Below the pieces are notes generated by a model. The model saw only the letters and a list, made by a program, of their open reading frames with translations. It did not search any database and was not told where the DNA came from. From Halarchaeum nitratireducens (GTDB lineage Archaea; Halobacteriota; Halobacteria; Halobacteriales; Halobacteriaceae), in contig NZ_BMOQ01000001.1 of NCBI RefSeq assembly GCF_014647155.1, positions 186,001 through 250,000 on the forward strand: a stretch of DNA of 64,000 nt, in the 5' to 3' direction. This document shows, in pieces, positions 20,013 through 36,472 of the stretch. The translations under genes were made by a program, and so were the position numbers. Numbering within the stretch: the stretch's first letter is position 1; every line of letters begins with the position of its first letter.

Positions 20013-21269
20013 ATGAGCGAGCAGCAGGGCGAGCAAGCGTCCGAGGACCGCCGGAAGTACGAGTTCCGGAAGGTCATCGAGAAGCTCCAGGACTACTCCG
20101 GGAGCGGGACGCAACTCGTCTCCATCTACGTCCCCGAGGACAAGCAGGTCTCGGACGTGGTCGCCCACGTCACCCAAGAGCACTCGGAGGCGTCGAACAT
20201 CAAGTCGAAGCAGACGCGTACGGCGGTGCAGGACGCCCTGACCTCCATCAAGGACCGCCTGCGCTACTACGATACGTTCCCCCCGGAGAACGGGATGGTG
20301 CTCTTCTCGGGGTCGATCGACGTCGGGGGCGGCCAGACGGACATGGTGACCGAAGTCCTCGAGTCGCCGCCGGAGCCCGTCCAGTCCTTCCGCTACCACT
20401 GCGACAGCGCCTTTCTGACGGAGCCCCTCAAGAACATGTTCGCGGACAAGGGCCTCTACGGGCTCATCGTCCTCGATCGCCGCGAGGCGAACGTCGGGTG
20501 GCTGAAGGGGAAACGGGTCGAGCCCGTGAAGTCCGCCTCCTCGCTCGTCCCCGGTAAGCAGCGCAAAGGGGGGCAGTCCGCCCAGCGTTTCGCCCGCCTC
20601 CGCCTCGAGGCCATCGACAACTTCTATCAGGAGGTCGCCGAGATGGCGAACGACCTCTTCGTCGACCGGCGCCACGAACTCGACGGCGTCCTCGTCGGCG
20701 GCCCCTCCCCGACGAAGGACGAGTTCCTCGACGGCGACTACCTCCATCACGAGATTCAGGACAAGGTCCTCGGGAAGTTCGACGTCTCGTACACCGACGA
20801 GTCCGGCCTCTACGACCTCGTCGACGCGGGCTCGGCCGCGCTCGCCGAGGCGGCGCTCATGGAGGACAAGAACGCGATGGAATCGTTCTTCAAGGAACTC
20901 CACGACGGCGATCTCGCCACCTACGGCTTCGAGGCGACCCGTCGCAACCTCGTGATGGGGTCCGTCGACGAACTCCTCCTGAGCGAGGACCTCCGGCAGG
21001 ACGTCGTCACCTACGAGTGTGAGAACGGCCACGAGGAACGCGAGGTCATCGATCGCCGAACGGAGGAGATCCCCGTCCACGACTGTTCCGAGTGCGGTGT
21101 GACGGTGGAAGACGGCGAGCGCGAGGACATCATCGATCACCTGATGAACATCGCCGACCAGCGCGGTACCGAGACGACGTTCATCAGCACGGACTTCGAG
21201 AAGGGTGATCAGCTCCTCAACGCTTTCGGCGGGATCGCCGGCCTGCTGCGCTACTCCACCGGCGTGTAA
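20013..21269 (+). CDS. prf1: Peptide chain release factor aRF1
   Basis: Archaeal class I release factor recognising all three stop codons and triggering peptide release. It has 418 residues. The NIKS stop-decoding motif is at 62-65 and the GGQ catalytic motif at about 186-188, within GKQRKGGQSAQRF. The C domain holds a zinc-like CxxC segment (HDCSECGV) and binds the GTPase partner. Full length and intact. It is followed immediately by the first hairpin-array element. Confidence 0.97.
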   Translation: MSEQQGEQASEDRRKYEFRKVIEKLQDYSGSGTQLVSIYVPEDKQVSDVVAHVTQEHSEASNIKSKQTRTAVQDALTSIKDRLRYYDTFPPENGMVLFSGSIDVGGGQTDMVTEVLESPPEPVQSFRYHCDSAFLTEPLKNMFADKGLYGLIVLDRREANVGWLKGKRVEPVKSASSLVPGKQRKGGQSAQRFARLRLEAIDNFYQEVAEMANDLFVDRRHELDGVLVGGPSPTKDEFLDGDYLHHEIQDKVLGKFDVSYTDESGLYDLVDAGSAALAEAALMEDKNAMESFFKELHDGDLATYGFEATRRNLVMGSVDELLLSEDLRQDVVTYECENGHEEREVIDRRTEEIPVHDCSECGVTVEDGEREDIIDHLMNIADQRGTETTFISTDFEKGDQLLNAFGGIAGLLRYSTGV

Positions 21270-21745
21270 AACGACCTTTTGCTGCGCGTCGGCGAAGCCG
21301 ACGCTGGCAAAAGCTCGGCCAAAAGCCATCGTCACCCCCTTTGGGGGTACCTCGGCCTCGCGCCTGTCGGCGCGAGTGAACCGGCGACCGACCGGGTTCT
21401 GGGCGAGACCAAAGGTCCCGCTTGCCCGCACTTACTTCGTTCGCGCGGACTTCGAGCCGTCACCAGAAATCGAGGATTTCTGGTTGGCGAACGAGACGAC
21501 GGAGTCGTCTCGTTAACGCTCGGTCGCCGGACGCTAGCCCTGGCGTTCCGTTCGACGGCTGTCGGCGTCGAACATCTGTTAGGTGCGTGTGCGTACTGAA
21601 CGCCAGTATTCGCGCGAACGAGCGGTCCGAAGGACCCGGTAGTGAGCGTGATTCGCCGCGAGCCGGAGGCTCGCGGGCTTTTTCACCCATGTTTTTGCCA
21701 TGAGCAGTTCGCGCCTCGCGCGAACTCGAGCGGGAAAAAGATGGT
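21270..21745. repeat. Intergenic hairpin-array element, copy A
   Basis: No gene is present between convergent aRF1 and argS. The stretch is a chain of perfect hairpins, mostly with three-base loops. Stems: 21276-21282/21307-21313 enclosing 21286-21293/21297-21304; 21334-21339/21343-21348; 21357-21364/21369-21376; 21462-21471/21475-21484 (10 bp); 21490-21500/21504-21514 (11 bp); 21550-21557/21566-21573; 21656-21664/21668-21676; 21707-21714/21718-21725. Anchors shared with copies B or C include CCAAAAGCC, CCGGGTTCT, CGGACGCTAGCCC (21528-21540), CGAACGAGCG and TTTTTCAC. Function unknown. Confidence 0.8.
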
Positions 21746-23497
21746 CTACATGGAGCGCGGTGCCTCGATCCCGAGGACGTCGAGCGCGTTGGCGAGCGTG
21801 TTGCGGGCGCTCGCCACGAGCGCGAGGCGCGCCCTCCGAACGGCGGGATCGACGTCGTCGGCGAGCACGGGGCACTCGCGGTAGAAGGTGTTGAACGCGT
21901 CGGCGTACTCGCGGGCGAAGGTGGCGATCTGGTGGGGCTCCAAGTCCGTGGCGGCGGCGTCGACGACGCCGGGGAAGCGCGCGGTCTCGCGGAGCAGTTC
22001 GATCTCGGCGTCGGCTTCGAGGAGGCTCGCGTCCGCCTCGTCGGGCGTCTCGGTGTCGTCGAGGATCCCGCAACTACGTGCGTGCGCGTACTGGATATAG
22101 GGCGCGCTCTGCGCTTCGAAGTCGAGCGCCTCGTCCCACTCGAACGTGATGGCCTTCTGGGGTTGTTTGGAGACGATGTCGTACCGGACGGCGCCGACGC
22201 CCACCTGCTCGGCGATCCGCTCGACGTCGTCGGCGTCGATGTCGTCCTCCCGGATGCGGTCGTCGAGGCGTTTCTCGACCTCCTCCCGAGCGCGCTGGAT
22301 GGCCTCGTCGAGCAGGTCGTCGAGGTCGATCCCGGTGCCGCGACGGGTGCTCATCTTCCCCTCGGGGAGGTTGACGTAGGAGTAGATGACGTTCTCCAGC
22401 TGGTCGGTGTCGTTCCCGAGGAGCTCGAGAGCGGCCTGCAGCTGGCCGGCCTGGAGCTTGTGGTCCTCGCCGAGGACGGTGACCGAGCGGTCGTACGCGT
22501 CGAACTTCCACTCGTGGTGGGCGAGGTCGCGCGTCGTGTAGAGGCTCGTCCCGTCCGAACGGAGGAAGACGAGCTTCTTCTCGTATCCCCACTCGGAGAG
22601 GTCGAGCTGCCACGCGCCGTCCTCGATGACGGCCTCGTCGGTCTCCTGCAGGCGCTCGGCGAGTTCTTTCGTACCGCCGTCGCGCATGAACGACGTCTCC
22701 TTTACGAACTCGTCGAACTCGGCGGGGAGCCGGAGCAGACACTCTCGCATCCCGCCGAGGACCTGATCGACGACGCGCTGGACGCGCTCGTAGGTCTCCT
22801 CGTCGCCCTCTTCGAGCCCTTGGAGGATCGATTGGATCTCGTCCTCGGCCGCCTCGACGGCGTCGGGGTGGGCCTCTTCGAGGTAGGCGTTGCCCTTCCG
22901 GTAGTATCGCACGAGGTCGTACTCGACGCGTCCGCGCTCCGGTTCCGAGTCGAGGTCGTCCTCGTCGAACGTCTCGTAGGCCCACGTGAAGACCGCCATC
23001 TGGCGCCCGGCGTCGTTCACGTAGTACTCGGTGGTGACGTCGTGGCCGGCGTAGTCGAGGAGGCGCGCGACGGCGTCGCCGACGATGGGATTTCGCGCCC
23101 GCCCGACGTGGACCGGCCCGGTCGGGTTCGCGGAGGTGTGTTCGACGAGGACGTCCTCCCCCGTCGCGGGGAGCTCGCCGTAGTCGTCGTCGCGCCCGGC
23201 GTCGAGGGTGTCCGCGTAGTATGACGGCGTCGGAAGGACGTTCACGTAGGGGCCCTGCGCGCGGACTTCACGGACGTACTCGTACTCGTCGGCGTCGACG
23301 GCGTCGGCGATCCGAGCGGCGACTTCCGCCGGGGGCGCGCCCAGCTCGCCCGCGAGTCGGAACGCGACGCTGGAGGCGACGACGGCGTCCACGCCTTCCG
23401 GGGGTTCTTCGATACCGAGGTCGTCCGTCGGCAGGTCGAGGGTCTCGAGCGCCCCGGTGAGGGCGGACTCGACCTCCGCACGGAGTGCGAGGAACAT
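21746..23497 (-). CDS. argS: Arginyl-tRNA synthetase
   Basis: Class I aminoacyl-tRNA synthetase charging tRNA-Arg, 583 residues. [15 protein letters not shown] carries the HIGH-type motif. The catalytic core runs through [23 protein letters not shown] split over two strands, and [14 protein letters not shown] carries the KMSKS-type motif. The all-alpha anticodon domain ends the protein. The ATG at 23497 ([10 protein letters not shown]) is preferred to the frame opening at 23524. Its 3' end faces hairpin-array copy A. Confidence 0.96.
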
Positions 23498-27786: not shown

Positions 27787-28213
27787 AGCTTTTGCAAGCG
27801 CGCTTCTCGCGCGCTGCAAAAGCTTCACCAAAAGCCTTCCTCGCTCCTGTCGCTCACTACGTTCGCGTTAGTCGCTCGTCGGCCCGAACGCTGCGCGTTC
27901 GGGGAGCTGCGAACCTACCGGGTTCTTCGAACCACTCGGTTCGCGGACGCTAGCCCCGTAGTTCGTTCAGCTACCGCTGTGCGAACGTTCAAACCGGAAG
28001 CCGACACCACGTCGTCCCGTGATCTGACGACTACTACGGGACGCCCAGCGAAATCGGCGACGCGCCGTTCCGTGGACGCGGCGACGACTAGCGGGAGTCG
28101 CCGAACGAGCGAGCGGTGAAGCCGCGAGCGCGCCAGCGCGTCGCCTGTTCGCCTTTTCACTCCGAGTCTCGCGGCTCTCGCCGCCTCGACGGACCCGGCT
28201 ACCCGAGGGACGC
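27787..28213. repeat. Intergenic hairpin-array element, copy B
   Basis: Between convergent ilvE and lysS, with no gene supported. It opens with a long stem GAAGCTTTTGC (27785-27795, starting inside the ilvE stop) paired with GCAAAAGCTTC (27816-27826) and extended inward by AGCGCGC/GCGCGCT with one bulged A. Further stems are 27883-27891/27895-27903 (9 bp) and 27928-27933/27938-27943. Anchors shared with copy A: CCAAAAGCC, CCGGGTTCT, CGGACGCTAGCCC (27944-27956), CGAACGAGCG, CCGCGAGC and TTTTCAC. The right third diverges. Confidence 0.72.
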
Positions 28214-35960: not shown

Positions 35961-36472
35961 CGAGCCTTTGCCGCGCTCGGCCAAAAGCCCGTCAGACCCC
36001 CTTCGGGGGTTGGTTCGAGAGACGGCCTGGCGCTGACGCGCGAGTGAACCCGACCCCACTGGGTCCTAACGGACCGCTCGGGTCGCGGACGATTGGCCCG
36101 CGTGGTTCGCCGGTTCGAGCCGTGATCGCCCCCTGACCGCTCCCGACGCGAGGCCTCGTCAGCCCGCGTGCGTCGGACCGCGACACGACGCGTGTCGCGG
36201 CACCCCGCTCGTAGAGGGAGTTTCCGTTTTCGTCTCACCGTTCTGCGTTCCGCGAGCCGCCGGCTCGCGGATTTTTCCGTGCAGAGTTTTGCCAGGAGTG
36301 GTCGCGGCGGCGGTTCTCGGGCCGCGGCGGTTGTCCTTCTCTCGTCCGCGAGCGCTCCACGCTCGCGCATTTTTGGTCCAGCTTTTTCGAGGAGCGGGTC
36401 GCGGAGCGACCCCGACGAGGGAAAAGGTGGGGGTCCTAAGCCTTTTTCCCGCTCGAACGCCTACGGTGACGT
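35961..36472. repeat. Intergenic hairpin-array element, copy C
   Basis: No gene is present. Starting just after the rps19e stop it repeats the order of copy A: GGCCAAAAGCC, ACCCCC-TTC-GGGGGT, GCGCGAGTGAACC, CGGACG, a stem 36178-36187/36191-36200 (10 bp, loop ACG), CCGCGAGCC/GGCTCGCGG (36250-36258/36262-36270), GTTTTGCCA, a stem 36396-36402/36406-36412 with loop GGA, then GGGAAAAGGTGG. The last 40 bases carry TAAGCCTTTTTCC, a possible pdcd5 promoter. The arms differ from copy A in many stems but still pair. Confidence 0.78.

Follow-up and report, generated by a model that had tools for sequence, protein, structure and literature searches.

The genes aRF1 (20013-21269, forward strand) and argS (21746-23497, reverse strand) of Halarchaeum nitratireducens, both identified by Pfam, are separated by a gap of 476 bp (21270-21745), which is referred to here as element A and lies in a window of 64,000 nucleotides, the whole stretch of DNA that was analysed. 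The gap contains seven perfect hairpins whose arms measure 8 bp or more, compared with a mean of 0.09 and a maximum of two in dinucleotide shuffles, and eight if arms down to 6 bp are counted (shuffle mean 1.16, maximum five). The observation made in the preliminary description was confirmed. The two hairpins which that description named are exact: one has 10-bp arms and the loop GAG (21462-21484), and the other has 11-bp arms and the loop GGA (21490-21514). The statement that the gap is almost entirely composed of perfect hairpins was too strong, as these cover 168 of the 476 bases (35%), with more of the gap in imperfect or bipartite stems.

Element A, which had been taken as a single unit, is composed of two independent modules arranged tail to tail, one for each gene end (aRF1 and argS), an anatomy that comes from the side-by-side reading of many copies. 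The left module (21270-21541, forward strand) is of type T1, starts directly after the stop codon of aRF1 in sense orientation, and has copies elsewhere in the genome by BLAST and a covariance model. Its first stem, H1 (21272-21317), has the form CGA-C-CTTTTGC ... GCAAAAG-C-TCG with an inner hairpin (21286-21304, loop GAA), and its T-tract begins approximately 6 nt past the stop codon. The anchor GCAAAAGCTCGGCCAAAAG (21307-21325) has the pattern AAAA-N8-AAAA, which reads as a double T-tract on the opposite strand, and is followed by H2 (ACCCCC-TTT-GGGGGT, 21334-21348) and by H3 (CTCGCGCC-TGTC-GGCGCGAG, 21357-21376), all seven pairs of which covary, with the anchor TGAACC next. H4 (21381-21530) has an outer stem CCGGCGACC/GGTCGCCGG, formed by 21381-21394 paired with 21517-21530, and a conserved internal loop, and is split by two nested inserts; the two hairpins named above belong to nested DNA at 21462-21514 and are therefore inside H4 of the left module and outside its conserved core. 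The covariance model gives a weak match in this module (21356-21461; L051:1259-1364), and the module ends with the tail anchor ACGCTAG (GGACGCTAGCC) at 21531-21537. A comparable nested insert with stems different from those of element A is present in the aRF1 module of H. rubridurum, and the aRF1 module of Halolamina salifodinae carries a ACCAGAAAT hairpin close to the nested-insert hairpin of element A.

An inter-tail spacer of 56 bp (21542-21597) separates the left module from the right one (21598-21745, reverse strand), which is of type T2, stands in sense behind the stop codon of argS, is matched by the model at 21598-21676, and shares 84% identity with another T2 module of the genome by BLAST. 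Its parts are H4 (TCGCGCG...CGGTCC-GAA-GGACC..., 21610-21651), H3 with 9-bp arms (21656-21676), and an AAAAA-N8-AAAAA anchor together with H1 (21677-21745), a TTTTT/AAAAA stem with an inner hairpin at 21706-21726, the T-tract of which lies 5 nt past the argS stop codon. In other species, gaps of the corresponding kind are AT-rich, contain orphan genes, and reach approximately 1.4 kb.

The general order of a module is H1 (the T-tract/A-tract stem), AAAA, H2, H3, H4, and ACGCT. H1 encloses a variable inner hairpin and reads CGA-C-CTTTTGC...GCAAAAG-C-TCG in type T1 and CCAT-C-TTTTT...AAAAA-C-ATGG in type T2, in which H2 is missing. A second, unpaired AAAA lies eight bases beyond H1 and ahead of H2, H3 is followed by TGAAYC and then by H4, the conserved internal loop of H4 has TACCG or TCGCTCGGG on one side and RCTCG on the other, and GGACGCTAGCC forms the tail. 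In H. rubridurum (L070, L074, L075, and L077), H1 is often CGACCGTTTGC instead of CGACCTTTTGC, sometimes together with a matching GCAAACG on the other arm.

The anchors recur in the same order in two further gaps between genes of the window, as the preliminary description had observed. The first (27787-28213, IlvE/lysS) holds element B, a T1 module behind an IlvE-like gene (27787-27970, forward strand; model match 27883-27958), together with a degenerate partner on the lysS side; modules also occupy this site in another genus and in two further species of Halarchaeum. The second (35961-36472, rpS19e/PDCD5-like) holds element C, a T1 module with a shortened H1 behind rpS19e (35961-36110, forward strand; model match 36026-36100), with more T2-like hairpins at 36249-36298 and 36347-36450; the corresponding site of H. 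rubridurum has a module as well.

The window shows only a sample of the copies: a BLAST search with element A against its own whole genome gave 63 matches. The covariance search that had been proposed for finding further copies, made with a model spanning H3, H4, and the tail, found 27 copies in the H. nitratireducens genome; of the 24 family genomes, 22 were positive, with 1-33 copies each; outside the family, it found one or a few copies in scattered genomes and approximately 10 in one genus (family f4). The H1 anchor GCAAAAGCTCGRCCAAAAGC, with at most one mismatch, was present in 39 of 117 haloarchaeal genomes, compared with two matches in total for a reversed control pattern. The loci fetched from other families comprise H1 together with H2/H3 arrays of a simpler kind, and most of them follow a stop codon or lie in a gap between convergent genes. 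In two other families, T1 modules lie between direct repeats of 58 nt (93% identical; L153:2603-2930) and 26 nt (92% identical; L152:2767-3036), and the repeats around such modules (L151-L156) contain GTAGTGTTCCGGGCGTACA. An IS605/TnpB host for these repeat-flanked modules was rejected: the neighbour genes tested match FAD-dependent oxidoreductases, not TnpB, and Rfam gave no match. Plasmid and phage collections searched by blastn with one 221-bp module query likewise returned no match, and a plasmid or phage origin was set aside on that result. An Rfam scan (cmscan, E up to 5) gave chance matches inside the aRF1 gene only. No description of the module family was met in Rfam or in the open-access literature searched, which is not proof of there being none elsewhere; the family was previously unnamed, in agreement with the earlier remark that no haloarchaeal family of this type is known.

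The earlier claim that the stems differ between copies yet stay paired was borne out. In the aligned stems, 96.6% of the cells are paired, with 372 double-change cells against 111.5 in shuffles; the alignment made before the model fit had 87.9% of the cells paired, with 58 double changes against 18.6. The proposed selection for structure, if taken in the sense of RNA, does not fit the kind of mismatch observed: G.T occurs 19 times and A.C 18 times among 1,628 cells (G.U approximately 1.2%), and 1,030 bp of hairpin stem contain five mismatches in total, with one G.T and one A.C among them. A tRNA control (seven tRNAs; three G.T and no A.C) is too small a sample to matter. Frequent G.T pairing in bacterial REPs has been used as an argument for RNA function (PMC3733652), and the modules show the opposite pattern.

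The loops are restricted. Of 187 hairpins, 153 have a loop of three bases, and the form C(GNA)G or C(TNC)G accounts for 113 of the 153 triloops, compared with 11 of 178 in shuffles and two of 44 in coding DNA. C-G closes the loop in 152 of 155. The C(GNA)G loop corresponds to d(GCGNAGC), a mini-hairpin motif of very high stability in DNA. On the sense strand, 88 TNC loops were counted against 25 GNA loops, the GNA form being mostly on the template strand, and this skew may come from common descent or from a strand preference. Among 10 comparable orthologous stems, one orthologous pair shows inverted loops: the same stem carries TAC in the first species but GTA in its counterpart, and another stem has GGA and TCC. 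Complete stem replacement between orthologs was considered and found too strong, as the stem identity is 76% for orthologous modules and 63% for paralogs. The equality of G.T and A.C, together with the inverted loops, leads us to conclude that the pairing is kept as a DNA palindrome, whether by template-switch repair, inter-copy exchange, or DNA-level selection; RNA-level selection was rejected as its cause on the 19:18 balance.

The position of the modules was counted for 80 modules from four genomes. A sense gene lies upstream of 68 of them, as had been predicted for copies downstream of stop codons, and the T-run starts 2-10 nt past the stop codon in 43 of the 46 modules with a placeable T-run. 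A TTTT no more than 18 nt from the stop codon was found in 52 of 67 modules, compared with three of the 55 other gene ends that the window provided as controls, and AAAA-N7-9-AAAA in 49 of 67 modules and in none of the 55. A convergent neighbour was found for 45 of the 68 sense-gene modules, the corresponding figure for gene ends of the window being 22 of 60. The sites are also persistent. All 11 sampled loci of H. rubridurum, whose aRF1 is 96% identical to that of H. nitratireducens, have a module at the matching place in the H. nitratireducens genome, and in another genus (genome G008), five of approximately 20 loci are behind the same genes (aRF1, IlvE, thermosome, CDC48, and methionine adenosyltransferase), where about 0.2 would be expected by chance, an estimate based on 27 modules and some 3,200 genes. 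These five sites and that of a KaiC-domain protein are kept across other genera or families; the thermosome and CDC48 sites occur in other families as well (L160/L161 and L163), and modules behind aRF1 were also found in two Halobacterium species and Halolamina. At three loci of the H. nitratireducens genome (L020, L022, and L026), modules lie directly behind tRNA genes, recognised by eye as tRNA-like sequences. The argS gene converges on aRF1 here (20013-23497), and in the other haloarchaea in which it was found, argS is upstream of aRF1 on the same strand; a local inversion with its breakpoint at the module-bearing gene ends would explain the convergent arrangement.

The DNA between paired tails behaves differently from the modules that flank it. 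When orthologous gaps are compared between three or four Halarchaeum species, the modules on either side are retained, but the inter-tail DNA is unrelated in almost all comparisons. In cargo-bearing pairs with a measured span, its GC content is 0.42-0.64, compared with approximately 0.69 in the window, and it often contains one small orphan gene, typically for a lipoprotein or membrane protein; the exception is the GC-rich (0.74) inter-tail DNA of locus S2 in H. rubridurum. At the same locus, the cargo of H. nitratireducens has 90% DNA identity to that of genome G002 and is not shared with the closer H. rubridurum. Behind aRF1 of H. acidiphilum (L101:1587-2661), two inverted modules flank approximately 1.07 kb of 48% GC with a 166-aa orphan ORF. 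A Pfam search of ten cargo genes gave nothing for eight and otherwise only DUF7522 and a sub-threshold DUF7537, and the idea that the cargo consists of known mobile or defence genes was dropped on this result.

Several known systems resemble the modules in part. REP/BIME elements are likewise dispersed extragenic palindromes, often in pairs of opposite orientation, that favour gene 3' ends and convergent genes, but they are 20-40 bp long, whereas the modules measure approximately 130-180 bp, contain three or four hairpins, and have freely variable stems without G.T enrichment at positions conserved across families. The REP tag GTAG (or CGTC) was not found at the foot of the palindromes; the only form in which GTAG appears in the alignments is CTACC, within the H4 internal loop of some modules. 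The RAYT/Y1 transposase (PF01797) is absent from H. nitratireducens (27 modules), from G008 (33 modules), and from several other family genomes, and RAYT-driven REPs were discarded because Y1_Tnp is lacking in both the own genome and the most copy-rich one. The modules would work like REP/BIME elements and T-stretch terminators, and they are not REP members since neither the tag nor the transposase was found. With regard to MITEs, inverted pairs are present, no empty site was found, and the 11 sampled H. rubridurum loci match module sites. Integron attC sites are also hairpins of variable sequence that bracket exchangeable genes, and they are defined by the core sites GTTRRRY/RYYYAAC and an integron integrase; the modules differ from them in being inverted pairs at scattered loci with no cassette array.

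Among haloarchaeal elements, the PATEs and SMR-A of Haloquadratum are similarly transposase-free and palindrome-rich, with nested insertions into palindromes (PMC3119063). The near-terminal palindromes of PATEs are related to IS605-type ends, from which PATEs derive with strain-specific insertions (PMC3119063), whereas the modules adjoin stop codons and are retained at the same genes. The mobile hairpins of organelles (double-hairpin elements, GC clusters, and sponge RHEs) are also small GC-rich intergenic hairpin units, but sponge RHEs conserve their stems and vary their loops (PMC2800124), while the modules vary their stems, restrict their loops, and conserve their position. The archaeal T-stretch terminator has a T-tract close behind the stop codon (PMC7237163), as do the 52 of 67 modules counted above against three of 55 control gene ends; in the modules, however, this tract is the 5' arm of a multi-hairpin structure, to which a second, opposing double T-tract is added. 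Structured RNAs tolerate G.U in preference to A.C, a preference that the modules lack.

Element A is best explained as a tail-to-tail pair from a haloarchaea-wide family of gene-end palindromes. The combination of a T-tract for the sense transcript with a double T-tract for the oncoming one favours bidirectional modules at gene ends, and it is about an even bet, judged from sequence, that they are terminator/insulator elements acting mainly between converging genes. Each module starts 0-10 bp behind a stop codon, and the T4-T5 tract in its first stem would stop the sense transcript. TTTT-N8-TTTT on the opposite strand would halt the transcript arriving from the other side, with the GC-rich palindromes that follow the double T-tract reinforcing the barrier. 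In Haloferax volcanii, a T stretch is an experimentally confirmed intergenic terminator, with T5C giving 95% termination in a reporter, and hairpins are able to contribute to termination (PMC7237163). The stems would be renewed by hairpin template switching and exchange between copies, and the space between two tails would be a harmless insulated slot in which small foreign genes could be gained, lost, and exchanged. Against the terminator role, the T-tract has decayed to GTTT in several Halarchaeum modules with the module persisting, 12 of the 80 modules have no abutting sense gene, and 23 of the 68 are not at convergent ends. Since most genes have no module, the module is not a general terminator, and termination alone is no explanation of three or four hairpins and the H4 internal loop.

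The main rival to bidirectional gene-end modules, considered somewhat unlikely, is that the modules are the ends of mobile elements (MITE- or PATE-like, or a cassette system), in which an inverted pair would serve as long terminal inverted repeats and the AT-rich gene as cargo, moved or exchanged by a putative recombinase acting on the hairpins. Dozens of dispersed copies, many of them inverted pairs, agree with it, as do orthologous pairs between which the AT-rich DNA is unrelated and the orphan genes differ from one species to the next, and the S2 cargo common to the more distant pair of species and not to the nearer one; hairpins of this kind are single-stranded DNA substrates in known systems. 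The positions are old, however, with 11 of 11 sampled H. rubridurum loci matched and several common to other genera and families. Neither an empty site nor a target duplication was observed, a large number of modules stand alone and belong to a single gene end, T1 and T2 occur together in the same pair, and neither H. nitratireducens nor G008, which has the most copies, contains a Y1 transposase. A related proposal, judged unlikely, is that tail-to-tail modules are recombination sockets, DNA hairpins of conserved structure and variable sequence behind core genes, with small foreign genes inserted and swapped between them by a putative single-strand recombination system; if true, a genome would carry dozens of safe, insulated cassette slots.

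The other readings concern what the hairpins do once in place. Structured 3' UTRs acting as RNA in mRNA stability or regulation, with covariation arising from selection on the transcript, would suit the sense orientation directly behind stop codons and the strong covariation, but are quite unlikely, as such selection tolerates G.U and not A.C, which are here equal and rare, with only the five mismatches in 1030 bp of hairpin stem, as the loops are inverted between orthologs, and as REPs show the reverse, frequent G.T pairing (PMC3733652). The palindromes might instead act as DNA on the presumed model of bacterial BIMEs, absorbing supercoils between convergent genes through cruciform extrusion or the binding of a protein such as topoisomerase; the enrichment at convergent ends, the DNA-level palindromes, the loops of the very stable mini-hairpin type, and the conserved H4 internal loop accord with this role, which is nevertheless highly doubtful, there being no known binding protein and the T-tracts being left unexplained. 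It is very improbable indeed that the modules are non-functional relics, with stems paired only through palindrome-restoring template switching during replication: perfect stems without G.U bias and loop inversion would follow from such a process, but conservation of the unpaired anchors extends across genera and families, and modules have stayed behind the same genes.

Archaeal gene ends are poorly understood, and the module, which several haloarchaeal families keep immediately past the stop codon of core genes (aRF1, thermosome, CDC48, and tRNA synthetases), offers a concrete and testable candidate for a gene-end element. Its stems are also a clean natural case of covariation without RNA structure, given the equal G.T and A.C and the inverted loops, and they warn that covariation is not proof of a functional RNA. 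Furthermore, small orphan genes may be able to enter haloarchaeal chromosomes harmlessly through the slots that paired modules leave between them.
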